64,000 nucleotides of DNA from Enteractinococcus coprophilus (lineage in GTDB: Bacteria; Actinomycetota; Actinomycetes; Actinomycetales; Micrococcaceae): positions 372,001 through 436,000 of the forward strand of contig NZ_VFOU01000003.1 in the NCBI RefSeq assembly GCF_006716305.1, written 5' to 3'. A model generated the notes under the pieces. That model saw nothing but the letters and a program-made list of their open reading frames with translations, made no database searches and was not told the origin of the DNA. This document shows, in pieces, positions 4,060 through 31,352 of the stretch (position 1 is its first letter; each line of letters opens with the position of its first letter). A program made the position numbers and the translations under genes.

Positions 4060-5571
4060 TTAGGTTAACTCCCCCAGTAGGTCGTCACGCAGCGTCGTGG
4101 TGTAGAGGTCATCTTCCGTGTTGATTCCGTAGGCCAGTAATTCTGGCCAGGCGTGGTGAATGAGATCCCGTTGTAGCTGCGCAGTCGGGCGGACCTGAAG
4201 CGGTTGGCTGATGAGCAGCTCATAGATGCGCCGAACGTTGACGGGGACGATCGAATCAAAGACCGTATCGGTTTCATTGGCGACTTCTGCGTACCAGCGA
4301 GATGACCGGTTCTCCCAATGATAGGCATCGGTATATTCGACGTTCTCGTGGAGCCGGTCGTATTCAAATTCCGTGAATTTGTGCCAAAAGAACTCGCGAT
4401 AACGACTGGCCGCTGGGCGTCGTCGTCGGATAATTTCTTCGGCGACTTGTGCAAAGCGGTCTTTTTTGTCTGGAATGTCGAGTCTGCCCCGGATCAGTCG
4501 GCCCATTTCGACGAAGTTACCGCGGACGTGGATGCTGTTCAGATTCGGGAAGAGGTCCTTATATTTGCGCACGTAAGGCCACCCGTGATTGCTGGTCGTG
4601 TTCCGCGCCAGAGTCTGGTGGTCGGCGTCAGTCAGGATGTCATCACCGGGTTTGATAATCACCGCGAAGTCTTCCGGGAGGTGGTCTTGCATTTGTGACA
4701 AGATGTTGTGATCGGTGACCATTGTGCGCTGCCAGAAGCTTGCTGGCGCTTTACCGGTGGCAATATTTGATGAGGTGTAGGTAAAGGCTCGAGTGCGTTC
4801 ACGGTAGGGGCGCATGTGTGCCAGCACGGTGCGAGAGTCCAGCCCGCCGGACAGTGACATACCCACGGGGCCATGCGGACTGTGGGCAAAAACCTGGGCA
4901 AGCTGTTCGTGCCATAGCTCGTGGATCATGTGGATCCGTTGGGTCCAGGTGAGTTCGATGAAGGGGTTGGGTTGCACCAGGCCGAAGCGCGGTTGGGTGC
5001 CGTGAGCTAGCTGGAGTCGGTGGTTGGGCAAGAGCGCGCGGATATCGGGATGATCGGTGAGGTCCCACATCCCGTCTGGTGAGGTCTCGGGGCGTTTGCT
5101 GCCCAGACTGCAGGTCAGTTCGCGGGGGTTGGTCAGTCGGTGCAGCATATCGAAATGCGACGCGATGCGCTGCTGGGCGTGGTTGAAGTGCACGGTGCGG
5201 TGACCTGCGGCATCGTTATAGGCGTAGATGTTCCCATTGGAACGCAGCAGGACCGCGTGGCGTCCACCAACGTCATATAGGGCGGTTTCGATTCCAGCAA
5301 AGCCATCGCGCTGCAGCTGCCGCAAGAGCTGCTCAGCATAATCGGGGCTGGAAGCGTCCAGGATACCGGTTGATAGGGGTAGTATTTTGCCCAGCGTTAC
5401 CACCCAGTCGTCACCGGCAGTTGCAATGCTCAGTTCGGTGATCTCATCTACGTAGAGGACGCCACCGGGCAGGTCGTGACGTTGGAAATGTTCGAGATCT
5501 TCCAGCAGCCCGACGGGCGCGGGTCCAAAGAAGAATCCTCGAGCATAGAGCCGTACCCAGGAAGTGGTCAT
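4060..5571 (-). CDS. Asparagine-synthase-like ATP-pyrophosphatase protein
   Basis: A 503-residue protein with the class B asparagine-synthetase layout. An N-terminal Ntn-like beta domain (about 1-180) precedes a synthetase domain with the PP-loop SGGLDSR at 241-247, which binds ATP and forms an acyl-adenylate. The N-terminal catalytic Cys2 needed for glutamine hydrolysis is absent (the protein begins MTTSW), so it should use ammonia or another amine, or form an amide or lactam as in lasso-peptide or beta-lactam cyclases. The start at 5571 was chosen because TAAGGA lies 10 bases upstream, overlapping the stop of the preceding gene; an upstream ATG at 5658 would overlap that gene by 74 bases. 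It is probably translationally coupled to the gene at 5585-6640. Substrate unknown. Confidence 0.8.
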   Translation of the reverse strand: MTTSWVRLYARGFFFGPAPVGLLEDLEHFQRHDLPGGVLYVDEITELSIATAGDDWVVTLGKILPLSTGILDASSPDYAEQLLRQLQRDGFAGIETALYDVGGRHAVLLRSNGNIYAYNDAAGHRTVHFNHAQQRIASHFDMLHRLTNPRELTCSLGSKRPETSPDGMWDLTDHPDIRALLPNHRLQLAHGTQPRFGLVQPNPFIELTWTQRIHMIHELWHEQLAQVFAHSPHGPVGMSLSGGLDSRTVLAHMRPYRERTRAFTYTSSNIATGKAPASFWQRTMVTDHNILSQMQDHLPEDFAVIIKPGDDILTDADHQTLARNTTSNHGWPYVRKYKDLFPNLNSIHVRGNFVEMGRLIRGRLDIPDKKDRFAQVAEEIIRRRRPAASRYREFFWHKFTEFEYDRLHENVEYTDAYHWENRSSRWYAEVANETDTVFDSIVPVNVRRIYELLISQPLQVRPTAQLQRDLIHHAWPELLAYGINTEDDLYTTTLRDDLLGELT

Positions 5572-5584
5572 GTGGTAAAAGTCC

Positions 5585-6640
5585 TTACTGGCGTCGGAAA
5601 GGTAGTCCGGCAACCCAAGTTCTGAATCTGGACAGTGTACTGGGCTGTGCGTGTGCACCGGGTGGGGAGATCGTCAGTCGTAGATCAATCACAGAGGCTT
5701 CTGGATGGTCCGAGGGCTCTCGCGTGACCATAACGACTGTTGTTAAGGAATCGCGCCCCCGTCTTCTGGGGAGCGTGACGTCCTGCTGCAGTTGACTTGA
5801 TGCGATATCGCTACAGTGCACCAGCTTGTGGTTCCGGTGCACTTGGAGCTGCAATCCCCCGTGATTACCTGAGTTCGTATTACAGTGCATCGTCACACCC
5901 GAGCCTGAATTGAAGACCTTGCCTAGCGGTGTGAGATCCAGTTCTAACCGGTTGCCGAGTTTCATCTCGTCGGGCTGCAGCTCCAGTGTTCCCACAAACT
6001 GCCGTCGGCTGATCACGGAACCATCGGACTCCACCAGTCGGCACCACAATTGCGGCAATGCTGCATCAAAGTCTTCCGGTGGGGTCAACCATTGCGGATA
6101 TTTGGATCGTTCATAGAGGTCAAGCGGGTTGAAGCGGTCGCCGAAAAAGTTCAGGAACCGGGCATGGTTGTCAATCGCATCGCGCAACACCAGCTCATGC
6201 AGCGGATGCCTTTGATCAGGCAGGTTGTCATCCAGCGCGTCGAAGCCGGTAAATAGCGGTGTCAACGTCGCATCTGGAAAACGCTCTTCGAGGGTAGCTC
6301 GAGTGTGCTGCTCAGTTCGCTCGCGATCGATGGCCCAAATCAGTGGACCCGAGGCAGCAGCGAGTTGGTGTGCACGAGAATGGTCTATCAGGTGCACTCC
6401 TGGGGCGTTTCGTACGGTTTCCAGAGCGGTTTTCAAGGCCCGAACATACGATGCGGTGGGCTCCTCGGTGACAATGTGCACGGTGAGCTGCGATCGATGC
6501 GCCCAGAGTACGGCGAGGACAGCCCGTCCGGTGAGATCGTTTTCCATCACGAGGTTGTAATGCAGCGCCTGGTCAAGTGGCGTTTTGTTTTGCAGTTCTG
6601 CGGTCAGATTGGCAGCGCGGTCATGCCCGGTGGTGCTCAC
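5585..6640 (-). CDS. Protein of unknown function, upstream partner of the asparagine-synthase-like gene
   Basis: A 351-residue soluble-looking protein that I do not recognise. It has no signal peptide or transmembrane segment. The N-terminal half reads as alternating alpha/beta (AVLAVLWAHRSQLTVHIVTEE; GPLIWAIDRE). The C-terminal half is beta-rich with several Cys and His residues (VTMHCNTNSGNHGG; KLVHCSDIAS), and the last 30 residues are basic. The GTG at 6640 was chosen because AGGGGA lies 4 bases before it and a TATACT -10 is 30 bases upstream; the ATG at 6712 would lie upstream of that promoter. The stop TAA is part of the next gene's ribosome-binding site, so the two products are probably made together and act on the same substrate. 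Confidence 0.6.
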   Translation of the reverse strand: MSTTGHDRAANLTAELQNKTPLDQALHYNLVMENDLTGRAVLAVLWAHRSQLTVHIVTEEPTASYVRALKTALETVRNAPGVHLIDHSRAHQLAAASGPLIWAIDRERTEQHTRATLEERFPDATLTPLFTGFDALDDNLPDQRHPLHELVLRDAIDNHARFLNFFGDRFNPLDLYERSKYPQWLTPPEDFDAALPQLWCRLVESDGSVISRRQFVGTLELQPDEMKLGNRLELDLTPLGKVFNSGSGVTMHCNTNSGNHGGLQLQVHRNHKLVHCSDIASSQLQQDVTLPRRRGRDSLTTVVMVTREPSDHPEASVIDLRLTISPPGAHAQPSTLSRFRTWVAGLPFRRQ

Positions 6641-6669
6641 GACGTCCCCTCTATATGGTGCATCTAGGC

Positions 6670-6696
6670 AGTATAGTCTCTGGTTTTTGGTTTCAA
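6670..6696 (-). promoter_or_regulatory. Probable promoter of the 6640-4060 unit
   Basis: On the minus strand, TTGAAA (6691-6696) and TATACT (6670-6675) with a short 15-base spacer lie about 30 bases before the chosen GTG start. Confidence 0.4.
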
Positions 6697-6789
6697 TTAA
6701 AGTTGTTCCCACTCAATCAATAGACCCTTGGACCTGCATGTGACTGGTGTTACCGTGGAACGACCTGCTCGCTTACACAGAGGAAAATT

Positions 6790-7704
6790 ATGCGCAACAC
6801 CGCTCAGAAAAAGTTCCAGATTTTTGGTCGTATGACTGCCATAGCAGCGGCGGCGGGGCTTGCTCTCACTGCCTGTGGCAACGGCGAGACCGCTGACACC
6901 GGTTCCGGCGAGGGCGGCGATGAAATTAACATTGCTATCAACCATGGTTGGGAAGAAGGCATTGCGGTAGCTGAACTGTGGTCTTTAATCCTGGAGGATG
7001 AAGGCTACACCGTCAATAAGACCTACATGGACCTGGCCCCTAGCTTCTCCGCGCTCTCAACCGGTGACATGGACTTCAACATGAACATCTGGCAGCCTGT
7101 CACCCACAAAGACTATCTCGAAGAATATGGCGACACTCTCGAAGAAGTTGGCGTCTGGAATAGTGACGCGAACCAGGTCATTGCTGTGAACGCTGATGCT
7201 CCATTTGATTCTCTGGAAGATTTAGCTGATCATGCTGAGGAGTATGACAGTCGCTTGGTTGGGATTGAGCCAGGTGCAGGGCTGACCGAACGTACTGAGC
7301 AGTATGTTATCCCTGAATACGGTCTTGAAGATTGGGAGTTTAGAACTTCTTCAACCCCTGCGATGTTGCAAGAAGTTAAAACCGCAACCACCGCCGGCGA
7401 GCCCATTGCTGTCACCCTGTGGCGTCCACACTGGGCGTTCAATAGCTATGACATCAAGGCTTTGGAAGATCCCAAGGAAGCACTTGGTCAAGAAGAGAAT
7501 ATGACCATTTATGCTCGGGAGGGCTTCTCCGAAGACCAGCCTGAGGTGAATGAATGGCTGGCGAACTTTGAGATTGATACCGAACGACTCCAAGATCTTG
7601 AAGTTGTCCTGTTCGAAGAAGAAGTTGAGCAAGACCAGTACGAAGAAGTCATTCGTGCGTGGATGGACGAAAACCAAGACTGGGTTGACTCGCTGACCTC
7701 ATAA
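6790..7704 (+). CDS. Glycine betaine/proline-betaine ABC transporter substrate-binding lipoprotein (OpuAC/ProX type)
   Basis: A 304-residue extracytoplasmic binding protein for quaternary-amine osmoprotectants. It has a basic N-terminus and a lipobox ending LTAC, with Cys29 as lipidation site. An acidic linker precedes the OpuAC domain (INIAINHGWEEGIAVAELWSLILE; FNMNIWQPVTHKDYL; LVGIEPGAGL). Tryptophans such as those in NIWQP and TLWRPHWAF are of the kind that form the aromatic betaine cage. AGAGGAAA precedes the ATG by 5 bases. No permease or ATPase gene of the family lies next to it, so it must work with a transporter encoded elsewhere or with a second binding-protein-dependent system. Confidence 0.9.
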   Translation: MRNTAQKKFQIFGRMTAIAAAAGLALTACGNGETADTGSGEGGDEINIAINHGWEEGIAVAELWSLILEDEGYTVNKTYMDLAPSFSALSTGDMDFNMNIWQPVTHKDYLEEYGDTLEEVGVWNSDANQVIAVNADAPFDSLEDLADHAEEYDSRLVGIEPGAGLTERTEQYVIPEYGLEDWEFRTSSTPAMLQEVKTATTAGEPIAVTLWRPHWAFNSYDIKALEDPKEALGQEENMTIYAREGFSEDQPEVNEWLANFEIDTERLQDLEVVLFEEEVEQDQYEEVIRAWMDENQDWVDSLTS

Positions 7705-7709
7705 GCCCC

Positions 7710-8330
7710 CTATACGATCTGACAGGCGTCGTCGAAGGATAATCGACCGGCCCGGGTTCGAATCGCTGCAGGATCATCGGCACTGGGTGCCCACCCGACG
7801 TTGATGATCACTTCAGTTTGCCACCCGGTATCGGCATGAAATTCCTCGTCGACGCCTGTTGCATTAAACCCCGTCATCGGGCCGACATGCAGCCCGTGGG
7901 CGCGCAGGCCCACAACCAGATATCCGATCTGCAAGTGTGCTGAGCGCTGCCCAATTTCGCGGCGCGCGCCCGGATCGTCTTCAAGTTTGTCTCGAGCGCC
8001 CGCTTTATGGGGCGCAAGCACTGATAACTGTCGATGCCAATAGGGATCCCAGGCAGCAAGAATTGTCAGGGGCGCCGCAAGGGTTTTGTCTCGATTGCCC
8101 TTACGCATGTGCGGAGCCAATCGTGCCCGAGACTCGACAGTGTGGACCAGGGTGAGGCGTAGCGGCTGGGAGTTCATCTGTGTTGGAGCCCAGCGAATGT
8201 CGTCGTAAACGGCCGCAATGGTCGCAGGGTCCACGGCGTCATCGGAAAAGGTGTGGGTGGTGTGCGCGTCAACGAATAACATATCGAGCAGATCGCGAGA
8301 AAGACCCGAGGTCGAACCAGTATGCGACAT
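7710..8330 (-). CDS. Nitroreductase-family protein (RutE/HadB-like malonic semialdehyde reductase)
   Basis: A 206-residue FMN-dependent reductase of the RutE/HadB subgroup. The family blocks THTFSDDAVDPATIAAVYDDIRWAPTQMNSQPLR (N-terminal FMN phosphate and dimer region, quoted only as an orientation), APHKAGARDKLEDDPGARR and GPMTGFNA are present in order. In E. coli RutE reduces toxic malonic semialdehyde from pyrimidine breakdown to 3-hydroxypropionate. No other rut genes are near, so the physiological substrate is uncertain; it may be a quinone or nitro compound. AGGAAA lies 6 bases before the ATG. The gene converges on the betaine-binding protein gene with a 5-base gap and is divergent from dnaX. 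Confidence 0.85.
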   Translation of the reverse strand: MSHTGSTSGLSRDLLDMLFVDAHTTHTFSDDAVDPATIAAVYDDIRWAPTQMNSQPLRLTLVHTVESRARLAPHMRKGNRDKTLAAPLTILAAWDPYWHRQLSVLAPHKAGARDKLEDDPGARREIGQRSAHLQIGYLVVGLRAHGLHVGPMTGFNATGVDEEFHADTGWQTEVIINVGWAPSADDPAAIRTRAGRLSFDDACQIV

Positions 8331-8434
8331 GAGTTTTCCTTTCCTGGGCGTGGCGGAATAAAGTCTAGTGGTACAGTTCGGCCAGCAGATAATGCTGGTG
8401 CCGAAGCAGCCGTCGCCACGCTAGGGTATTGAGA

Positions 8435-11353
8435 GTGACCACCGCTTTATATCGCCGCTACCGTCCGGATACGTTTGAAGAAGTTATTGGCCAGGAACAC
8501 GTGACCGTGCCACTGGCCAATGCGATCGACAAACACCGGATCAACCACGCCTACCTGTTTTCAGGCCCTCGCGGCTGCGGTAAGACCACCTCGGCACGCA
8601 TTCTGGCGCGCTGTCTGAACTGTGCCCAGGGCCCAACCGCCACCCCGTGTGGGACCTGTGATTCCTGCGTGGATTTAGCCACCGGTGGTCCGGGTTCGCT
8701 GGATGTTATTGAAATTGACGCGGCCTCGCACGGTGGTGTCGACGACGCGCGCGATCTGCGCGAGCGGGCAACCTTTGCTCCGACGCGCGATCGGTACAAG
8801 ATCTTCATTATTGACGAAGCGCACATGGTCACCTCGGCCGGGTTTAACGCGCTGCTGAAAATTGTTGAAGAACCACCCGAGCACATTAAGTTTATTTTTG
8901 CCACGACCGAGCCCGATAAAGTCATCGGGACCATCCGGTCGCGGACCCACCACTACCCATTCCGGTTGGTACCGCCCGAACCGCTCATGGAGCACCTGGA
9001 AGCGCTGGCTGCTGCCGAGCAAGTCACGATCGCACCGGGTGTACTGTCGCTGGTCATCCGTGCCGGTGGTGGCTCGGTCCGTGACACGCTGTCGGTATTG
9101 GATCAGCTCATTGCCGGTGCCACCGAAGATGGCGTCAGCTATGACCTGGCCGTGAACCTGTTGGGCTTCACGCCGGAGAACCTGTTGGACGACGTCGTCA
9201 ATGCGCTCGCCGCTGAGGACTCCAGCACCGTGTTCCACGTGGTTGATCAGGTCATTCAGTCCGGGCAGGATCCCGAGCGATTCGTCCAGGATCTACTGGA
9301 ACGCTTCCGCGACGTCGTCATTGTCAAAGCCGCACCCGAACAGGCCCCGGGAATTTTGCACGGCATGCCCGCCGATCAGCTGCGCCGACTCGAAGCTCAG
9401 GCACAGCAGCTGGGACCCGCCGAAGTCTCACGGGCTGCCGACATTACCGCCGCGGCCCTCACTCAGATGTCGGGGGCGACCTCACCGCGGTTACACCTGG
9501 AACTGCTGATGGCTCGGCTCATGCTGCCGGCCACCGATGAGACCGAACGCGGCCTGGCCGCACGCATCGACCGGTTGGAACGTCGCTTTGAATATGGCGG
9601 TCTACCTGAGTCTGCCACGGTTGAACAACCGGCTGCCAAACCCGTGATCGTGCGTTCGGAGGAGACCGGGTTGTCCGGTGCCGCCGCCGCACGGGCCGCA
9701 TTGGGTCGCGATTACGATGAAGATGAGCAGCCCGAAGATCTTGTACCAGAGCTTGCTCGTCCAGCCGACGCCGAGTCTCAACCTGCACCCACCCCTATTC
9801 CGCCGCAGCGCCAAGCACCGCAGCCAACGCAGACCTCAGAACCTGCACGACCTCGGGCTCAAGCGACACCACAGGCTCCGCAGCAGCCCGCCACATCCCA
9901 GCCAGTGACTCCGGACCAGACCGCGTCGACGCCGCCGCAACAGGATCCGCTCCAGCAGACCGCCCAGCAACCTGCTGCCCAGCAGCCATCTCAGGTGGAG
10001 ATGGCGCGTCGTGCGTGGCCGGAAGTGCTTGAGTTTTTGAAAAACGAGTCTCGGCTGATCTGGATGACCGTCAACGGCAACGCCCAAGTTGTTGGGTATG
10101 ACGGCAAACTGTTGACCATCGGGTTTGATAACGACGGCGCACGCAGCACTGTCCAACAACGTGGTGGCGAAAAACTGCTAGCCGCCGGTTTCAATCATGT
10201 GCTCGGGATCCAACCGGAGCTCGATCTGATTTCGGGTACCTCGGATGGTGGTTCCCCAAAAGCACCTAGCCGCCCGGCTCGGCCACAGCCTCAACAGGCT
10301 CCAGCCCAGAGGCAACCGCAACCACCAGCCCAACAGCCGCGAGGCCAGCAGGCACCGCCAGTTCGACCACAAGATCAGCAACCGGCATCCCCGGTTCCCC
10401 CGCAAGCTGCGGCCCCAACACCCGGCGCACAGCCGGTGGGGACCCCGCAATCACCGGTATCGCCCGCGTCTCCGCAGTCACCTCAGTCTCCGGCGTCGCC
10501 GTCCTCACCACAGCTCGACCCTCCGCAACCACAAGCCCCACAACCGGCCCAGCAGCGTCCGCAGCAGCCCTCGGCTGATCCGATTCATCCGACACCCCCG
10601 GCCACCGGTGTCGGAGGATGGGGCTCTGGTGAACCAAATCAGGCATGGGGCCAACCTGAACAACCCACCTGGGGTCAACCAGACGAAGCAGGTTGGGGCG
10701 CCTCCGATCCCAACTGGGGTCCACCCGAAGACGATTGGCTGCCACCGCCTGAAGACGACTGGCAACAGGGCCCACCGCCCCAACAACCGCCGGCCCAGCA
10801 ACAACCACCGGCACAGCAATCAGAACCTGGGGTCCAACCCGCACCGCCAGCTCAGCCGCAGCCAGGTTCATCAGCCGGTCCAACTCCGGGATCGGAAGCA
10901 ACCCCGGCACCAGAGCCGGAGCGGCCCACCGAACCGGATCCAGTGGCCGCCGACGGCTACGCCGGGTTTATCCCGCGGTCTGCCCCGGATGAGGAACCCT
11001 TTGTTCCGGCATTTGCGAAGTCTGAGGCCGAACTACGCGAAGAGTTCAAACGCCGCTTCAGCGACGTCATCCCCTCGAGCCCCGGGCCTACGAAGCCCCA
11101 GCGTGAACAAACTCAACCTGCCGGCTCGCGGTTTGCCGATATGGTCGCCCAATACGCGGGCGAACAGTCCGCAGAACAGGATGCCGAACCGACTGTTCAG
11201 AAGGATGAACCGACCGACGATGACGACGATTATGCCTCGGATGATGATGAGATCATCGAAGAATCGGGAATCGCCGGGCGGCGCGTCGTCGAAGAAGTCC
11301 TCAACGCGCGACTGATCGAAGAACGCAACCCCGACGGCACCCCCAAGGTTTAG
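8435..11353 (+). CDS. dnaX: DNA polymerase III subunit gamma/tau
   Basis: Clamp-loader ATPase of the replicative polymerase, 972 residues from the chosen GTG. The AAA+ core has Walker A GPRGCGKT (44-51), a zinc module with C63, C72, C75 and C78, Walker B (IFIIDEAHM) and the sensor/SRC motifs, and ends near residue 370. Residues about 510-590 form a folded domain that reads as the tau-specific region ([21 protein letters not shown]). The rest is low complexity: long Pro/Gln/Ala runs and a Trp-rich block (about 725-770, repeated W-G/D motifs). The end is acidic, followed by a conserved-looking tail ([19 protein letters not shown]). The gene is much longer than the enterobacterial form (about 640). 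A TTG two codons upstream is possible, but AGGG is better spaced for GTG. No slippery frameshift signal was seen. Confidence 0.95.
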
Positions 11354-23665: not shown

Positions 23666-26600
23666 CTAGCTGGCCACGACAACATCGGCCGCGTCGGCTT
23701 GCACGAGCTCCTCGATGACGGTGGTGACCCACGCGATCGTTTCATCAGTTGCCAACGTGCCCCCACCGGCGTCGTGCCGCCCGATTTCTCCGACGCGTCG
23801 GGCGCCTAACTCTTGGAAAGCTGCATCCACCAGGGTTGCGCCTTTGGCAAAGAATTCATACGAGCTATCGCCGAGTCCAAACAGCGCGTAGTACAACGAT
23901 GTGAGATCCGTACCCTCGGCTAACAATTGGGCATACAGGTCACGAATGCCGGTGGGCAGTTCGCCCTCGTCATAACTGGAGGTGATGACCAGCATGGGGG
24001 TGTCCGTCTGGAAGTCGCCCGGTTGCATGGTCGACATATCGACCGCCGTGGCGTTGGCACGGTCTGCGAGCGCCCGGACCAGTTCTTCGGAGACCAATTC
24101 GGCATTGCCCGATTCGGTGGCATAGGCGATGGTCAGCGGTGGCAGGTGCTCGTTGTTGAGCTCAACCTCGTGTTGCGGTTGCTGCGCGCGCGGCAGAGCT
24201 GTCGCAGAGGCCGCAATGAAACGGCGTTTTTGCGTATCGGTCAGTTTGGTGCGTGGTCGCAGGTCGGTTGTATTGGACTTTTCGTACGCATCGATCATCA
24301 ACCAACCGTCCCAGGTGGTGGACCGGGCCAGGTGATGACGTAGGGCAGGCAAACCCGCGACCTGCTTGATTCGCGGGGCAGCGAGATCGGTTGCGATGAC
24401 CTCTGCCAATTCACGTGCATCGGTGCGCTGAGACGGAATGGTGCCAACCGGTCCGCGGCGTAGCCAACCAGCAGCATAGAGACCCTCGGTGATCCGGCCG
24501 GTGCTGCGCGCCTCGTCACTGACCTGCAGCAGTTGTTCGGTTTGGTCACCGTGGAACCCGATCGCGGTGATAACCGAGGTCGTTGCGATCTTGTACGTCG
24601 TGGTCGTCGAGGACATCATCAGCGCTTCGACCTTACCGTCGGTAGTGACTACTTCATCAGGGGTATGGCCGAAGTACCAGTTGATCTTCATGCGCGCAGC
24701 CGGGTCTGCTGGGCGAGCTGCGAGTTCGGCCACGAGTTTTGCGCGAGCATCATGAGGTGCTGCTTCGGGGTCGAACCCGGTCACGGTGTGGGTGATGCCG
24801 GGTAGGTCAGCGATTTCACGCAGCATGACGGTATCGAATTTTGCTGCGGTAACGTCAGACCGGCCGATGACATTGATCGCGTGCAAGTGCTCGGTCAACG
24901 CTGCGTGAGTGGGTTCATCAATATCCGTTGCCGCCAACTGCTCTGCAGTGGAGGCCAGCAGCCGAATCATGTCCATGGCCACGTTGCCATTGCCCACGAC
25001 CGTGGTCGTAGTTCCCAACGTTGGCAGCTGGGTGGTGGTCCGGTGTTGTTGAGCATCAGCGTTGAGCAGTCGCGCGAGCTGTCCTGCCCCATAAACTTGG
25101 GGTGCATCCGCACCGTCAATGGCCAGGGTGTTATCGGCGCTCAGGCCCGTGGCGACGACGACGACGTCGTGGGTGTCGCGCAGCTGCTGCAGAGTGATTT
25201 CGGCGCCATCGGAGTGCATCGTGGAGACCTTCGGCGCGTGGAAGGATGGGCGGCCGTGGATGGCGACGTCGTCGAGTGGCTGGCCGGTGGTCACCGTGGT
25301 GGAGCCGATGAATTCGACGCCGTGGCGTTCAAAGAGCTGACTGAATTGGACTTCTACATCCTTGGTGCCCTGGTGATCGGCGGCCACACCCGAGCGTACG
25401 AGCCCAAAGGGGGTTGGGGATTTATCGAAGACGGTCACCCGAGCATCCGGCAGACGGCGTGTGATGGCCTGAGCCGTATAACAGCCCGCTGGTCCGGAGC
25501 CCACGATGGCAACATGTGCTGGCTGCATCTCAGACTCGACAGCTGACACTTCGGCGTCCCAGCGTACGGGCAGCAGATCCATACCGCGGAAGACCCAGCC
25601 ACCGGCTTCTGCCGGCCGATCTGGAATCAGCCCGAGGTTTGGGAGCTCGGAGAACAGTTTTGGCAGGGCCGCGGCGAACTGTGCGCGGGCAACCCAGGCG
25701 CCCAAGCACACGTGCACGCCCTTACCAAAGGCGAGGTGAGCGCCTTCGCCGGTTCGGGTCAGGTCGAAGCGCTCTGGGCTCTTCCAATAGTTTTCATCTC
25801 GGTTTGCTGACAACAGCGAGATGCCAAGTTTTGCGCCGGCCGGTAGGAACGTGCCCTGCAGTACGACGTCGCGGGTGGTTTGCCGCGAGTACATGCCAAT
25901 CGGTGCGACCCAGCGGATTGCTTCATCAAATACCGCATCCCACAGGGCGGGGTCGGCTTGGACCATAGCCAGCTGATCTGGGTTTTGCATCAGCGCCCAG
26001 GCGGCCACGCCGATCGCATCGCGCGGTTCATTGAGTCCCCCACCGATGGTCATTTTCAGATTGGCTCGAATCGATTCCACCGGCATCTGATAGTCCGGCA
26101 ACCGAACCAGAGCGGACAGCATCGAATCGTCCTGGTGGATTTTATGCCAGGCCAGCATCTCATCGAGGGCTTCATCGACTTCGTTATACGAGGCCTCACC
26201 TTTTGCCCACACCACTGGATCATCTGCATAATTACCGGTGGCATCGATCATGGTCTGGGACCAGCGCTGCAGATCCTGTTGAGTCACGTTGTGTAACCCC
26301 GTAACGGCGCGCAGGTTTTCCCCAGCATAGGGCGCAGCAAAGTCCCACACGAGATCCGCCCCGGGGCCTTTGGCTTTGAGTTCATTGAGGTACCGCTGGG
26401 CGTTGCGTTCAAAAATAGGTGCCCAGGTTTTCTTCACGACAGACGGACGCATGACCGGCTGCCAGGCTTGTCGTTCGACCCGGTGCTCAGGGTCGTCTTT
26501 ACGCAGCATGGAATGGCCCATGGCTCGGATCATCAGGGAACCTTCTTCGTTGGCCGAAAAGGTTTCTTGATCCAGCTCGGTGTCGTGCACGGCATCATAA

Positions 26601-26755
26601 GAGGTGATCAGATACCGACCGATTGCTGGGATCCAGTGTACTCCGCCTTCGGCGCGGAGACGTTCGAAGGTTGGGAACGGATCGCGGTAGAGTTCTTCGA
26701 TCGTCACCCAATCCGCAACTGGAGCGGGTTTGCCGTGGCCATGTGTTGTCGTCAT
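23666..26755 (-). CDS. Three-domain fusion: cytochrome P450 - adrenodoxin-reductase-like - flavodoxin
   Basis: A 1029-residue, apparently self-sufficient cytosolic monooxygenase. Residues about 1-405 are a complete P450: ExxR at E278-R281, haem loop FGKGVHVCLG with ligand C350. The I-helix reads GGGLNEP (238-244), with Pro where the usual oxygen-activating Thr stands. Residues about 412-850 are an FprA/adrenodoxin-reductase-like module: FAD motif VGSGPAG (418-424), NADPH motif VVGNGNVAMD (586-595), FAD C-terminal block GWLRRGPVGTIP (763-774). Residues about 873-1020 are a flavodoxin: FMN loop YATESGNAE (878-886), SSYDEGELP (926-934), FGLGDSSYEFF (959-969). Electrons would pass NAD(P)H-FAD-FMN-haem in one chain. 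AAAGGA precedes the ATG by 9 bases, and the start overlaps the upstream gene's stop (ATGA). Substrate unknown. Confidence 0.92.
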   Translation of the reverse strand: MTTTHGHGKPAPVADWVTIEELYRDPFPTFERLRAEGGVHWIPAIGRYLITSYDAVHDTELDQETFSANEEGSLMIRAMGHSMLRKDDPEHRVERQAWQPVMRPSVVKKTWAPIFERNAQRYLNELKAKGPGADLVWDFAAPYAGENLRAVTGLHNVTQQDLQRWSQTMIDATGNYADDPVVWAKGEASYNEVDEALDEMLAWHKIHQDDSMLSALVRLPDYQMPVESIRANLKMTIGGGLNEPRDAIGVAAWALMQNPDQLAMVQADPALWDAVFDEAIRWVAPIGMYSRQTTRDVVLQGTFLPAGAKLGISLLSANRDENYWKSPERFDLTRTGEGAHLAFGKGVHVCLGAWVARAQFAAALPKLFSELPNLGLIPDRPAEAGGWVFRGMDLLPVRWDAEVSAVESEMQPAHVAIVGSGPAGCYTAQAITRRLPDARVTVFDKSPTPFGLVRSGVAADHQGTKDVEVQFSQLFERHGVEFIGSTTVTTGQPLDDVAIHGRPSFHAPKVSTMHSDGAEITLQQLRDTHDVVVVATGLSADNTLAIDGADAPQVYGAGQLARLLNADAQQHRTTTQLPTLGTTTTVVGNGNVAMDMIRLLASTAEQLAATDIDEPTHAALTEHLHAINVIGRSDVTAAKFDTVMLREIADLPGITHTVTGFDPEAAPHDARAKLVAELAARPADPAARMKINWYFGHTPDEVVTTDGKVEALMMSSTTTTYKIATTSVITAIGFHGDQTEQLLQVSDEARSTGRITEGLYAAGWLRRGPVGTIPSQRTDARELAEVIATDLAAPRIKQVAGLPALRHHLARSTTWDGWLMIDAYEKSNTTDLRPRTKLTDTQKRRFIAASATALPRAQQPQHEVELNNEHLPPLTIAYATESGNAELVSEELVRALADRANATAVDMSTMQPGDFQTDTPMLVITSSYDEGELPTGIRDLYAQLLAEGTDLTSLYYALFGLGDSSYEFFAKGATLVDAAFQELGARRVGEIGRHDAGGGTLATDETIAWVTTVIEELVQADAADVVVAS

Positions 26756-27303: not shown

Positions 27304-28224
27304 ATGACTTCTCCCAGCACCCAACCCACACTGCGCCAGCTTGAGCTGTTTATTGCAGCAGCGCACTACGGGTCGTTTGTGGCAGCCGCCGACATCAAGT
27401 ACGTCACTCCAAACGCGGTGTCGTCGGCGGTCACTGAACTCGAATCCATCTTCAACACGCAACTGTTTATTCGGCGTCGTGCCAAGGGACTGATTACGAC
27501 GACGGCGGGCCATGATCTCATCGCACACGCGGAGCGCCTACTGGCCCAGGCCGAAGAACTGACACTATTGATCGGCAACCGTGACGATACACCGCGGGGT
27601 TCGGTGAAGATCGGCTGTTACGCGACCTTGGCGGCCACAATCATTCCTGAACTCTGGGCGCGCACCAGCCACCAGCTGCCCCTGATTACCTTGGACATTG
27701 AAGAAGGTCCCGTCGAGCAGCTGAGCCAAAAGCTTCTCGAGGGACGTTTGGATATGATGATTTCCTACCAGATCGGCTTGCCCACCGGCGTCGTCTCCAA
27801 TGAGCTTTTCCACGCCACGCCACACGTATCTCTACCAGACAATCATCCACTGGCATCCCAGCGACCCGTGGCACTCAAAGCGCTAGAAGACGAGCCGCTT
27901 ATCCTGTTGGACTTACCACCGGCCGGAGATAACACGCTTCGATTACTCCACAGTCAGGGCCTGCACCCCAATGTCATTCACCGCTCCACCAGTTACGAAA
28001 CCGTGCGCTCCATGGTGGCCCGCGGCTTTGGCTACTCGCTATTCTTTCAAGAAACGCATACCGAACTGTCCTATGAGGGCTTGCGCATTGTCGATCTGCC
28101 AATCGATCCGCCCCTCGAAACGGAGCCCGTGGTACTGTCTTACGATCGCGAAGCTCGGGCCACGCATCGAGCAAAGGCCGTCCGGGACCTTATGCTCGAC
28201 ATGTTCGATCTTTCGCGACAATGA
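27304..28224 (+). CDS. LysR-family transcriptional regulator
   Basis: A 306-residue regulator. Winged helix-turn-helix at about 8-67 (LRQLELFIAAAHYGSFVAAADIK region; NAVSSAVTELE recognition helix). The two-lobed effector domain runs from about 95 to 300 (GSVKIGCYATLAATIIPELW; LDMMISYQIGLP; LPDNHPLASQRP). It is transcribed divergently from the HtaA-like/P450 operon, the classic arrangement in which a LysR protein controls the divergent operon in response to a pathway metabolite. No other metabolic genes adjoin, so the inducer is probably the P450 substrate or product (inference). Confidence 0.93.
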   Translation: MTSPSTQPTLRQLELFIAAAHYGSFVAAADIKYVTPNAVSSAVTELESIFNTQLFIRRRAKGLITTTAGHDLIAHAERLLAQAEELTLLIGNRDDTPRGSVKIGCYATLAATIIPELWARTSHQLPLITLDIEEGPVEQLSQKLLEGRLDMMISYQIGLPTGVVSNELFHATPHVSLPDNHPLASQRPVALKALEDEPLILLDLPPAGDNTLRLLHSQGLHPNVIHRSTSYETVRSMVARGFGYSLFFQETHTELSYEGLRIVDLPIDPPLETEPVVLSYDREARATHRAKAVRDLMLDMFDLSRQ

Positions 28225-28281: not shown

Positions 28282-29217
28282 ATGAGCTTCGGTAAACAAC
28301 TTAATCTGTTTCTTGTAGATGGTAAACCCGGTGGCCTTTTAACCGCCGAGGTGCGCGGCTGGACAGGTCACATAACGGCTGCGCCCAGGACACGGATAAA
28401 GGAACTGCTGGAACGCGAAGAAGCATCGCGAACCGGGGTTTACATCCTATTAGGCGAAGACCCAGAGGCTCCGGAGAGTATCCGAGCATATATCGGTGAG
28501 GGCGATGAGATAGGCATTCGTCTAAAATCCCACACCCAGCCGCCCGAAAAAGGCGGGAAGGACTTTTGGGATCGCGCGATACTCATGACCAGCAAGGATG
28601 CGAACCTCACGAAAGCACATGTACTGTATCTGGAATCGCGCCTCATTCAGCTGGCAAAAAGAGCTCAACGCAGTCAAGTGGAAAACACACAATCATCTGA
28701 TCGAAGTCAACGACTCCCCGAAGCCGACATCGCGGTCATGGAGTCATATTTAGCAGAGCTAGAAATCGTGCTGCCAATGTTGGGAGTCAATATCTTTCGC
28801 CAACCCCGGCAGCAAATCGATCGCTCAACGCAAGTGACCACCGCGGTTACTAGCTCAGACGCTCCAATTTTTTATTTAGAGCATAAGCCCTCGGATCGAA
28901 GAGCTCGAGCCCAAGAATACGACGGCCAGTTCACCGTTTTAGAAGGTTCCCAGGCCGCCAGTGCCTGGACCGGGGTTCGGCGGGGATACCGCCAATTGCT
29001 TGAAAACCTCCACAAAGACGGGACGTTACGACCTGTGCCCACAAAGGACTATTCTGTATTTACTCGAGATCGAGTCATGAGCTCTGTCTCCGCAGCGGGG
29101 GCTATGATAACTGGTCGCGCTACAAACGGCCGGACGGAATGGCGGATAGAAGACTCAGAGATGACTTACGCCGAGTGGCAAAACTTCTCCTTAGGGGAAG
29201 ACCACACTTCCGCTTAG
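28282..29217 (+). CDS. GIY-YIG nuclease-domain protein with C-terminal DUF4357
   Basis: 311 residues. GIY-YIG module at about 48-125: GVYILLG (52-58), AYIGEGDEIGIRLKSH (69-84, with YIG 70-72, R80, H84) and metal-binding E118 (YLESRLI). Catalytic residues appear intact. The C-terminal part (about 200-300) matches the DUF4357 pattern (FTVLEGSQAASAW, then LLENLHKDGTL). Proteins with this pair are uncharacterised; DUF4357 is often found in restriction- or phage-defence-related proteins, so a DNA-cleaving role is plausible but not shown. It is a lone gene; a TACGCT 8 bases before the ATG could be a -10 for a leaderless message. Confidence 0.85.
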   Translation: MSFGKQLNLFLVDGKPGGLLTAEVRGWTGHITAAPRTRIKELLEREEASRTGVYILLGEDPEAPESIRAYIGEGDEIGIRLKSHTQPPEKGGKDFWDRAILMTSKDANLTKAHVLYLESRLIQLAKRAQRSQVENTQSSDRSQRLPEADIAVMESYLAELEIVLPMLGVNIFRQPRQQIDRSTQVTTAVTSSDAPIFYLEHKPSDRRARAQEYDGQFTVLEGSQAASAWTGVRRGYRQLLENLHKDGTLRPVPTKDYSVFTRDRVMSSVSAAGAMITGRATNGRTEWRIEDSEMTYAEWQNFSLGEDHTSA

Positions 29218-29810: not shown

Positions 29811-31352
29811 GTGGCCCAAGTGGTGTATTCGACTCGGTTAGCTCAGTTATGTGCAGCTACCGGTGTGGAAACCGTGTTTATTCCAAGACAGTTATGGAAT
29901 ACACAGCTCAGCGATGCGTTTGAGAACGCCGAAGGTAATATCGCAACTGCTGACGGTATTACGGAGATTGATCTTCGGCCCGTCCGCACGGGAACACCAG
30001 ACGGCGCGGTGATGGCCGCAGCTGGGTACCGCCACGCTGGTGGACCGCCCGCTGCTGTGGTGCTGGATGCGTCGCAGGATTTTTTGACCACGCTGGACAA
30101 AATTGGCCAAGCGGTCCGCGACAAACTGTCGATGGTCATTATTCTGGTCGAACCCGATGAACGGTTTAACGGCATTAGCGCGAACTGGGCGAGCCTGGTA
30201 ACCGGGGTCGGGGCGATTGCTGTACCAGCAGGTGAAGCGGAGAACGTTTCGCAGGCCATGGTCGATGTCATTGAGGGCCTAAACAAACAGCTTCCGGCAG
30301 TCCTGATTGTCAAGCCCGAAAACCTCGAGGCTGAGATTACCGACGAAGCCGAACCAGAGTTCGCCGCCCCACGCACCGGCGCCGTGCCCCAAACTTCCCA
30401 GGTGGTTCGTGCTGCAAAATCACTCGCGCAAGCCCGGTGGCCCCTCATCATTGCCGGCCGCGGCGCCCGCCACGCTAAATCGACGATCGTGGATCTGGCC
30501 AACACCACTGGAGCACTGCTAGCCACCTCGGCCGGAGCGCACGGGTTATTCGAAGACCAAGAGTTCAATATTGGTGTCCTGGGACGTATCTCGACACCGG
30601 CCACCGCCGAGCTGGCCCGCAATGCGGATGTGATCGTTGCATTTGGCTGCGCGCTTGATGATTGGACCACCCGAGACGGCAAGCTCATCGGCCCCAATAC
30701 CCTGTTGATCCAGGTCGACACATCGCCCTGGGCGGTGGGACGCTTCGCTGCGGTGTCACAGTCGCTGATCGCCGACGCCCAAGCGGTAGCGATTGCGTTG
30801 GATCTGGAGGTCAACAAGCTGCTGGCCGAACCCAAAGTCGGGTATCGGACCCAAGAAACGGTCGAACACTTGCAGTCCAAGTACTGGAACTCCCGGCCAA
30901 TTCCAGAACACCAGCTACGCGAAGATACGGTAGATGCCCGAGCATTCTTAAATCGACTCGAAGAGGTTCTCCCCACCCAACGCACGGTCATCGTGGATCA
31001 GTCACCCCAGGCAGGGTATGCCACCAGTTACCTGCGGGTACTCGATCACCGGGGCTACATGTTTTTTCCATCCGGTGCCGTGGTCGCCGGGATGGGTGCA
31101 TCGATCGCACGCGATGACCGGCTGATCGTCGTCGTGACCGATGAATCCGGGCTGATGGATGCGCTCACCGATTTCCGCACGGCTGTCGAAAATCTGCAAC
31201 GCGGCGTTTTCGTGGTTTTCCAGCAGGAAGCGCCGGTGGTTGAAATGGCCCGCTACTACGGGCTACCGGTTCATGAGATCACCGGCCTGGAGCAACTGAC
31301 TGCGGATATGTTCATTTCCGGTGTGGTGGTCTTAGCCGTGCAACAACAGTAG
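29811..31352 (+). CDS. Acetolactate-synthase-like thiamine-diphosphate protein with degenerate cofactor motif
   Basis: 513 residues in the three-domain order of ThDP decarboxylases: PYR-like (about 1-165), central Rossmann-like (about 190-330, RWPLIIAGRGARHAKSTIVDLA), and PP-like (about 365-510). The PP domain should carry G-D-G-x(about 25)-N-N for Mg-ThDP binding. It reads T-D-E (VVVVTDESGLMDAL), and the NN is replaced by Q-Q (VVFQQEAPVVEMA). The loop after it is shortened, joining almost at once to the MARYYGLPV helix. The N-terminal activating Glu region (usually H-E-G/H-E-x-x-A) is also unrecognisable. Probably it no longer binds ThDP: a structural or regulatory paralogue. GTG start with AGGAGG 5 bases upstream. 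Confidence 0.75.
   Translation: MAQVVYSTRLAQLCAATGVETVFIPRQLWNTQLSDAFENAEGNIATADGITEIDLRPVRTGTPDGAVMAAAGYRHAGGPPAAVVLDASQDFLTTLDKIGQAVRDKLSMVIILVEPDERFNGISANWASLVTGVGAIAVPAGEAENVSQAMVDVIEGLNKQLPAVLIVKPENLEAEITDEAEPEFAAPRTGAVPQTSQVVRAAKSLAQARWPLIIAGRGARHAKSTIVDLANTTGALLATSAGAHGLFEDQEFNIGVLGRISTPATAELARNADVIVAFGCALDDWTTRDGKLIGPNTLLIQVDTSPWAVGRFAAVSQSLIADAQAVAIALDLEVNKLLAEPKVGYRTQETVEHLQSKYWNSRPIPEHQLREDTVDARAFLNRLEEVLPTQRTVIVDQSPQAGYATSYLRVLDHRGYMFFPSGAVVAGMGASIARDDRLIVVVTDESGLMDALTDFRTAVENLQRGVFVVFQQEAPVVEMARYYGLPVHEITGLEQLTADMFISGVVVLAVQQQ

Follow-up and report, generated by a model that had tools for sequence, protein, structure and literature searches.

A window of 64,000 nucleotides from Enteractinococcus coprophilus (contig NZ_VFOU01000003.1, positions 372,001 to 436,000) contains a single gene for a polypeptide in which a cytochrome P450 is followed by an adrenodoxin-reductase/FprA-type module and a flavodoxin. 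Judged by its sequence and those of its relatives, the product is probably a catalytically self-sufficient flavocytochrome P450, with a predicted electron path from nicotinamide adenine dinucleotide (phosphate) (NAD(P)H) through flavin adenine dinucleotide (FAD) and flavin mononucleotide (FMN) to haem, and it probably arose by a switch from ferredoxin to flavodoxin followed by fusion. The gene is no lone oddity: the fusion is a conserved clade.

Three domains in one conserved frame

The fusion gene has no internal stop on the minus strand; the plus-strand reading of 23666-26755 runs into stops (Table 1). The original prediction, which gave no strand, had proposed one uninterrupted frame here, with P450, FprA-like and flavodoxin domains in that order. 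Frame, identities and order were all borne out, the latter two by intact core cofactor motifs and by matches to Pfam (p450, 8.8e-19; Pyr_redox_2, 1.3e-11; Flavodoxin_1, 5.7e-21) and PDB sequences. The residues it had named are in place: C350 and E278/R281 in the P450, GSGPAG (419-424), GNGNVAMD (588-595) and GWLRRGP (763-769) in the reductase, and YATESGNAE (878-886) and GLGDSSYEFF (960-969) in the flavodoxin. Among PDB sequences the P450 part finds 6g71 first (E 4.9e-157 to 4.2e-158), and the reductase part matches adrenodoxin reductase 1cjc (1.6e-31 to 1.1e-32) and FprA 1lqt (8.6e-30 to 6.2e-31), with homology along both the FAD and the NAD(P) domains. A reductase of the CYP116B type, or of the cytochrome P450 reductase (CPR) type, was considered and rejected, the matches being to Pyr_redox_2 and adrenodoxin reductase. 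All NCBIfam scores lie far under the curated cut-offs among the best 25 of 38 families, so that no curated family among these names the protein.

The fused open reading frame was found in 25 distinct sampled genomes, our own included, from four families of one order; seven of the 25 belong to one genus of another family. Its frequency, counting our own genome each time, was 6/9 in the genus, 16/395 in the family, 10/396 in the order and 2/394 in the class samples (matches at E up to 1e-60, mostly with the best two candidates per genome scored). A scan of contigs returned ten relatives, nine of them near full length and one, a Citricoccus copy, ending at a contig edge; those named are Enteractinococcus helveticum (88% identity), two Candidatus Yaniella, Yaniella halotolerans, a Micrococcaceae metagenome-assembled genome, two Citricoccus, Kocuria marina and two Tersicoccus. 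In genome G149 the copy is broken off by a contig end within the reductase part. The same domain order thus exists elsewhere, as the original prediction had proposed to check. It had also allowed that a stop or frameshift near residues 405 or 860 might separate the domains; none was found, and open frames bridge the P450–reductase junction in 25 genomes and the reductase–flavodoxin junction in 24.

All 24 full-length copies retain the core motif residues for haem, FAD, NAD(P) and FMN. In the P450 part, which has the cysteine ligand within FxxGxxxCxG and the ExxR motif of cytochromes P450, C350, E278, R281, F343, G346 and G352 are each invariant; position 344 is Gly in 13 proteins and Ser in 11. 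The GxGxxG and GxGxxA residues of the reductase (G419, G421, G424, G588, G590 and A593) are likewise found in 24/24, and the core of the FMN loop is conserved, with minor changes elsewhere (N884 is Gly in two of the 24). The P450 I-helix usually carries an acid–alcohol pair; here it reads GGGLNEPR in all 24 proteins and in 6g71, and GAMQEP in a GcoA-type entry, so that the usual pair is replaced in these proteins.

All three parts are under purifying selection. Compared with Enteractinococcus helveticum, the ratio of nonsynonymous to synonymous substitution (dN/dS) is 0.024 for the P450, 0.107 for the reductase and 0.117 for the flavodoxin; two remoter relatives gave 0.044-0.045 for the P450 and, in one case, 0.166 for the reductase, the other values being saturated at synonymous sites. 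Median identity between the window protein and the other 23 full-length proteins is 70%, 47% and 43% for the three parts in turn; the redox half evolves faster than the P450 part. Between alignment landmarks, the P450–reductase join spans 12-74 residues and the reductase–flavodoxin join 21-60 (21-28 in 22 of the 24).

In a P450 tree of 61 rows all 25 fused P450s fall into a single clade (support 100/100). The 24 full-length fused reductases do so in a tree of 43 rows (99/99) and the 24 fused flavodoxins in a tree of 41 rows (99/98), both trees comparing the fused rows with 17 unfused FprA/flavodoxin pairs, among them the presumed XplB and the flavodoxin domain of the presumed XplA. Several long branches were flagged by the program in these trees. 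Because the fused set is one clade in each, it is likely, on this phylogenetic evidence, that the fusion arose once.

Unfused relatives and a proposed switch of electron carrier

To compare gene surroundings we took 23 fused loci (8-15 kb; all but our own and the contig-cut copy of G149) and 19 split loci of 12.6-14.9 kb. The latter were chosen by us: 15 of the 56 family genomes that matched without a fused frame, and four farther genomes. A [2Fe-2S] ferredoxin gene (Fer2 by Pfam) is present at every split locus and at none of the fused loci; a ferredoxin reductase gene (Reductase_C by Pfam) is present at 18/19 and 0/23, respectively. FprA and flavodoxin show the reverse (fused 23/23, split 0/19). 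A divergent LysR gene occurs at 22 fused and 16 split loci, and a same-strand symporter relative, whose match to a metabolite/H+ symporter subfamily is below cut-off, at 10 and 14. Taken together, these contents describe one P450 subfamily, with a related regulator and often a related transporter, served by two electron chains. Other unfused P450s (at least 54% identity, 1.5 kb flanks) likewise adjoin a ferredoxin gene. At one locus (L111; G1087:C7:97000-111900, 4884-8900, minus strand) a single ferredoxin gene and a single ferredoxin reductase gene lie between two P450 relatives (56% and 50%), which apparently share this redox pair.

The solved structure 6g71, a free P450 of 405 residues that we take to be CYP1232A24 of Arthrobacter, falls together with the fused P450s (26 rows, 100/97), as sister to all of them, in a tree that omits five rows of the 61-row tree (two outgroups and, for their long branches, L086, L113 and L072). 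It is 59.9% identical to the window P450 over 394 residues. P450s of one subfamily share more than 55% identity; by this rule the window P450 falls, with 6g71, in what we take to be the CYP1232A subfamily. Unlike the fusion, 6g71 has its reported partners, a flavodoxin and a flavodoxin reductase, as separate proteins; according to PMC9687028, Klenk et al. found two Arthrobacter P450s whose possible gene cluster includes both a flavodoxin and a flavodoxin reductase.

Nineteen positions separate the 25 fused P450s from 22 ferredoxin-type P450s (selected from among the split rows), and at these 6g71 has the fused letter 15 times, the split letter twice and another letter twice. In the haem loop, K345 of the fused proteins stands against Gly in all 22 ferredoxin-type rows; among the other positions, W98-Q99 stand against Y-G. 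Their place in the sequence suggests that these residues may lie on the partner-docking face. From all this we infer a history in which a ferredoxin chain gave way to a free flavodoxin chain, as in 6g71, before fusion.

At R632-S633 the reductase half carries Arg-Ser in each of the 24 full-length fused proteins, where two of two housekeeping FprA proteins, and the adrenodoxin reductase and FprA sequences of the PDB, have Arg-Arg. In unfused flavodoxin-linked reductases the second Arg is absent in 17/17, and 15 of these have Arg-Ser. The fused reductase thus bears the signature of an XplB-like flavodoxin reductase (Arg-Ser for Arg-Arg, KFD-type, flavodoxin partner), as defined from the rows of this analysis. 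If the second Arg helps to bind the 2'-phosphate of NADPH, the choice between NADH and NADPH may differ in Arg-Ser reductases.

Electron path, alternatives and known P450 classes

If the fusion is self-sufficient, then NAD(P)H would reduce the FAD of the adrenodoxin-reductase-type module, FAD would hand on electrons one at a time to the FMN of the flavodoxin at the C terminus, and this flavodoxin domain would dock against the P450 at the N terminus, on its haem side, in the same or a partner chain, and so drive O2 activation. This path, together with cofactor loading and the preference for NADH or NADPH, is a prediction.

The substrate is probably a small (methoxy-)aromatic acid, subject to O-demethylation or hydroxylation. 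This suggestion draws on the solved relatives and on one gene neighbourhood. After 6g71 the solved P450 relatives lie at about 5e-45 to 6e-41, many of them labelled GcoA or aromatic O-demethylase; the GcoA entries (PDB 5ncb and kin, about 3e-41 to 6e-41) are the next solved relatives, at a much greater distance, and the reductase of GcoA, GcoB, is a separate protein. A Rhodococcus opacus P450 (50%) sits with genes for a ferredoxin, a reductase, protocatechuate 3,4-dioxygenase and fumarylacetoacetate hydrolase. A gene of the last kind also occurs near one split locus.

Several observations weigh against this picture. The FMN lies at the end of the chain remote from the haem domain, unlike in CYP102, which leaves the transfer geometry unproved, and AlphaFold models (11 sequences each) are too weak to settle geometry, whether of the full chain (mean predicted local distance difference test (pLDDT) 61.5, predicted template modelling score (pTM) 0.41) or of the redox half (pLDDT 65.9, pTM 0.46). 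Support for the fused rows apart from 6g71 is moderate (95/79). No sampled genome yielded the intermediate, in which a 6g71-like P450 would stand next to separate FprA and flavodoxin genes. Unfused P450s matched 6g71 at 56% at best in 10 genomes from a single genus, at 57% in 394 family genomes (E up to 1e-146; a sample that appears largely the same as the 395 above) and at 46.5% in the best 15 of 166 plasmid records, all 166 being under 60%. Finally, no ring-cleavage gene was recognised beside the fusion among the listed open frames of the window, some of which had a domain scan. A Foldseek search with the redox-half model ranked adrenodoxin reductase and FprA first to seventh (E 7.6e-28 to 2.9e-26, TM-scores 0.45-0.61), with no flavodoxin entry among the 50 matches listed; this ranking supports an adrenodoxin-reductase/FprA fold and goes no further.

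The position of the FMN raises the possibility that the fused protein works in trans, either as an obligate dimer in which electrons cross from the flavodoxin in one chain to the haem in its partner, or with its redox half also serving other acceptors, for instance further P450s of the cell. The variable P450–reductase distance would fit such an arrangement, as would the three other P450 matches in the genome (four in all). The fused P450s and fused reductases form one clade each, however, which argues for a dedicated pair, and transfer within a dimer would still make a self-sufficient enzyme; we consider trans action a tentative and rather unlikely alternative. It is very improbable that a separate ferredoxin goes on reducing the haem, with the fused reductase–flavodoxin half having another or minor role: unfused relatives (54-63% identity) do adjoin ferredoxin genes, but none of the 23 fused loci has one nearby, the motifs for FAD, NAD(P) and FMN persist and are under purifying selection, and K345 and 18 other positions differ from the ferredoxin-type P450s. 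The idea that separate genes were merged by an error of assembly or annotation, for which nothing speaks beyond the existence of three-gene P450/FprA/flavodoxin clusters (for example in Rhodococcus pyridinivorans), can be dismissed, since the same fused frame recurs in independent genomes of four families with a divergence that fits a clade.

The fusion was compared with known P450 systems. The original prediction knew of no described class with this architecture, and this is supported: the class I-X lists in the available parts of PMC11173547 and PMC9112060 contain no haem-FAD-FMN order with an adrenodoxin-reductase-type module, and none of the open-licence papers among the matches listed appeared to describe it, which is weak evidence of absence. 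Class VIII is loosely given, in the available part of PMC9112060, as haem with FAD and FMN; at this coarse level the fusion is kin to class VIII, with a different reductase type and domain order. P450 BM3 (CYP102), as described in the accessible class literature, similarly has haem, FAD and FMN in one chain with the P450 first. CYP102 has a CPR-type diflavin reductase with FMN before FAD and next to the haem domain; in the fusion an adrenodoxin-reductase-type module precedes the flavodoxin, and no CPR-type FAD domain was matched. CYP116B (class VII), with a phthalate-dioxygenase-type reductase that includes a [2Fe-2S] domain, and LumU (PMC12746152) also unite the P450 and all redox parts in one chain, but with a ferredoxin part in place of flavodoxin; no ferredoxin domain is among the Pfam matches of the fusion. 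P450cin (class III), with its cindoxin and cindoxin reductase, is described as the same chain of FAD reductase, FMN flavodoxin and P450, in three separate proteins.

The likeness to XplA/XplB that had been proposed stands for one half of the protein. XplA/XplB of Rhodococcus and Gordonia that degrade hexahydro-1,3,5-trinitro-1,3,5-triazine (RDX), which we take the genes on NZ_CP133331 and NC_018580 to encode, share with the fusion an Arg-Ser FAD reductase and a flavodoxin carrier, and the redox half resembles XplB and a flavodoxin. For the P450 half the nearest solved structure is 6g71 (60%), and kinship with XplA was rejected. Moreover, in XplA (class VI) the flavodoxin is N-terminal to another P450 and the reductase is a separate gene, whereas in the fusion the flavodoxin is C-terminal and the reductase lies within the chain. 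On balance we lean towards the view that haem-FAD(adrenodoxin-reductase type)-FMN(flavodoxin) is one more natural class of self-sufficient P450, which originated once in these actinobacteria by a swap of a [2Fe-2S] ferredoxin chain for a flavodoxin chain and then fusion, perhaps with a co-produced HtaA-domain protein as haem donor in some members of the clade.

Neighbouring genes and significance

Table 1. Features of the fusion gene and its immediate neighbours (window coordinates)
Feature	Position	Strand	Basis
Whole P450-reductase-flavodoxin fusion gene, 1029 aa	23666..26755	(-)	Single open frame; ATG start; stop codon 23668-23666
P450 domain, residues 1-405 (I-helix GGGLNEPRD 238-246, E278xxR281, haem-ligand C350)	25541..26755	(-)	Pfam p450, 6g71_A match, motif counts
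Haem-ligand Cys350 codon	25706..25708	(-)	Cys in 24/24 full-length fused proteins
Adrenodoxin-reductase/FprA-type FAD + NAD(P)H module with linkers, residues 406-860 (module ~410-852)	24176..25540	(-)	PDB sequence matches; Foldseek on weak model
Flavodoxin domain, residues 874-1017	23705..24136	(-)	Flavodoxin_1 5.7e-21; core FMN-loop residues kept
HtaA-domain gene, 158 aa	26752..27228	(-)	Pfam HtaA 2.9e-15; stop overlaps P450 start codon (ATGA)
LysR-type regulator gene, divergent	27304..28224	(+)	Pfam LysR_substrate 2.9e-37

The HtaA-domain gene upstream of the fusion is the sole HtaA match in the genome. Its product matches PDB sequences weakly (best 2e-4, one entry labelled HtaA) and shows, by eye, no obvious signal sequence. 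A Tyr aligned with these PDB entries is kept in 14/14 relatives and a His in 13/14 (13 beside fused genes, one at locus L115); both residues are putative haem ligands. An HtaA match occurs at 12 of the 23 other fused loci, upstream and on the same strand in ten, and at none of the 19 split loci. In the available part of PMC8027190, a Dietzia HtaA protein took haem from a P450 in vitro, so that exchange between the two folds is possible, the direction there being the opposite. The HtaA-domain protein is perhaps a haem donor or loader for the fused P450 in part of the clade. At L115 (G144:C9:14000-26000, ~5348-7770, minus strand) adjacent unfused HtaA-domain, FprA-like and flavodoxin genes occur with no match there to a relative of the fusion P450; HtaA thus also accompanies a free FprA/flavodoxin pair.

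Free pairs are found in other settings. On plasmids of Pseudosulfitobacter (L119), Nitratireductor (L124) and Paracoccus (L125), FprA-like and flavodoxin genes follow genes for a thiamine-pyrophosphate (TPP) enzyme, aspartate dehydrogenase and aldehyde dehydrogenase, and these stretches carry no annotated P450. On a Palleronia plasmid (L127, 1404-5637) such a pair lies near a gene for the alpha subunit of an aromatic ring-hydroxylating dioxygenase, and may serve a Rieske oxygenase.

A scan for promoters and terminators gave three promoter-like sites against 1.4 expected and no terminators against 2.9 expected. Beside the LysR gene, 28282-29217 (plus strand) encodes a protein of 311 amino acids with a C-terminal DUF4357 domain. 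Further on, 29811-31352 (plus strand) encodes a TPP-type enzyme whose N-terminal and central Pfam domains were matched and whose C-terminal domain was not (E up to 1e-5); relatives of this enzyme lie near the fused gene at several Yaniella-type loci.

The fusion adds a domain order beyond the class lists in the available parts of PMC11173547 and PMC9112060, and poses the question of how an FMN held at the opposite end of the chain comes within reach of the haem. With its relatives it makes a matched series, in which one P450 subfamily is combined with three electron supplies: ferredoxin, a flavodoxin reported to be free, and a fused flavodoxin. Such a series allows direct tests of partner switching and of fusion. 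The fusion may, in addition, provide a ready-made, self-sufficient means of O-demethylating aromatic compounds, a reaction relevant to the use of lignin.

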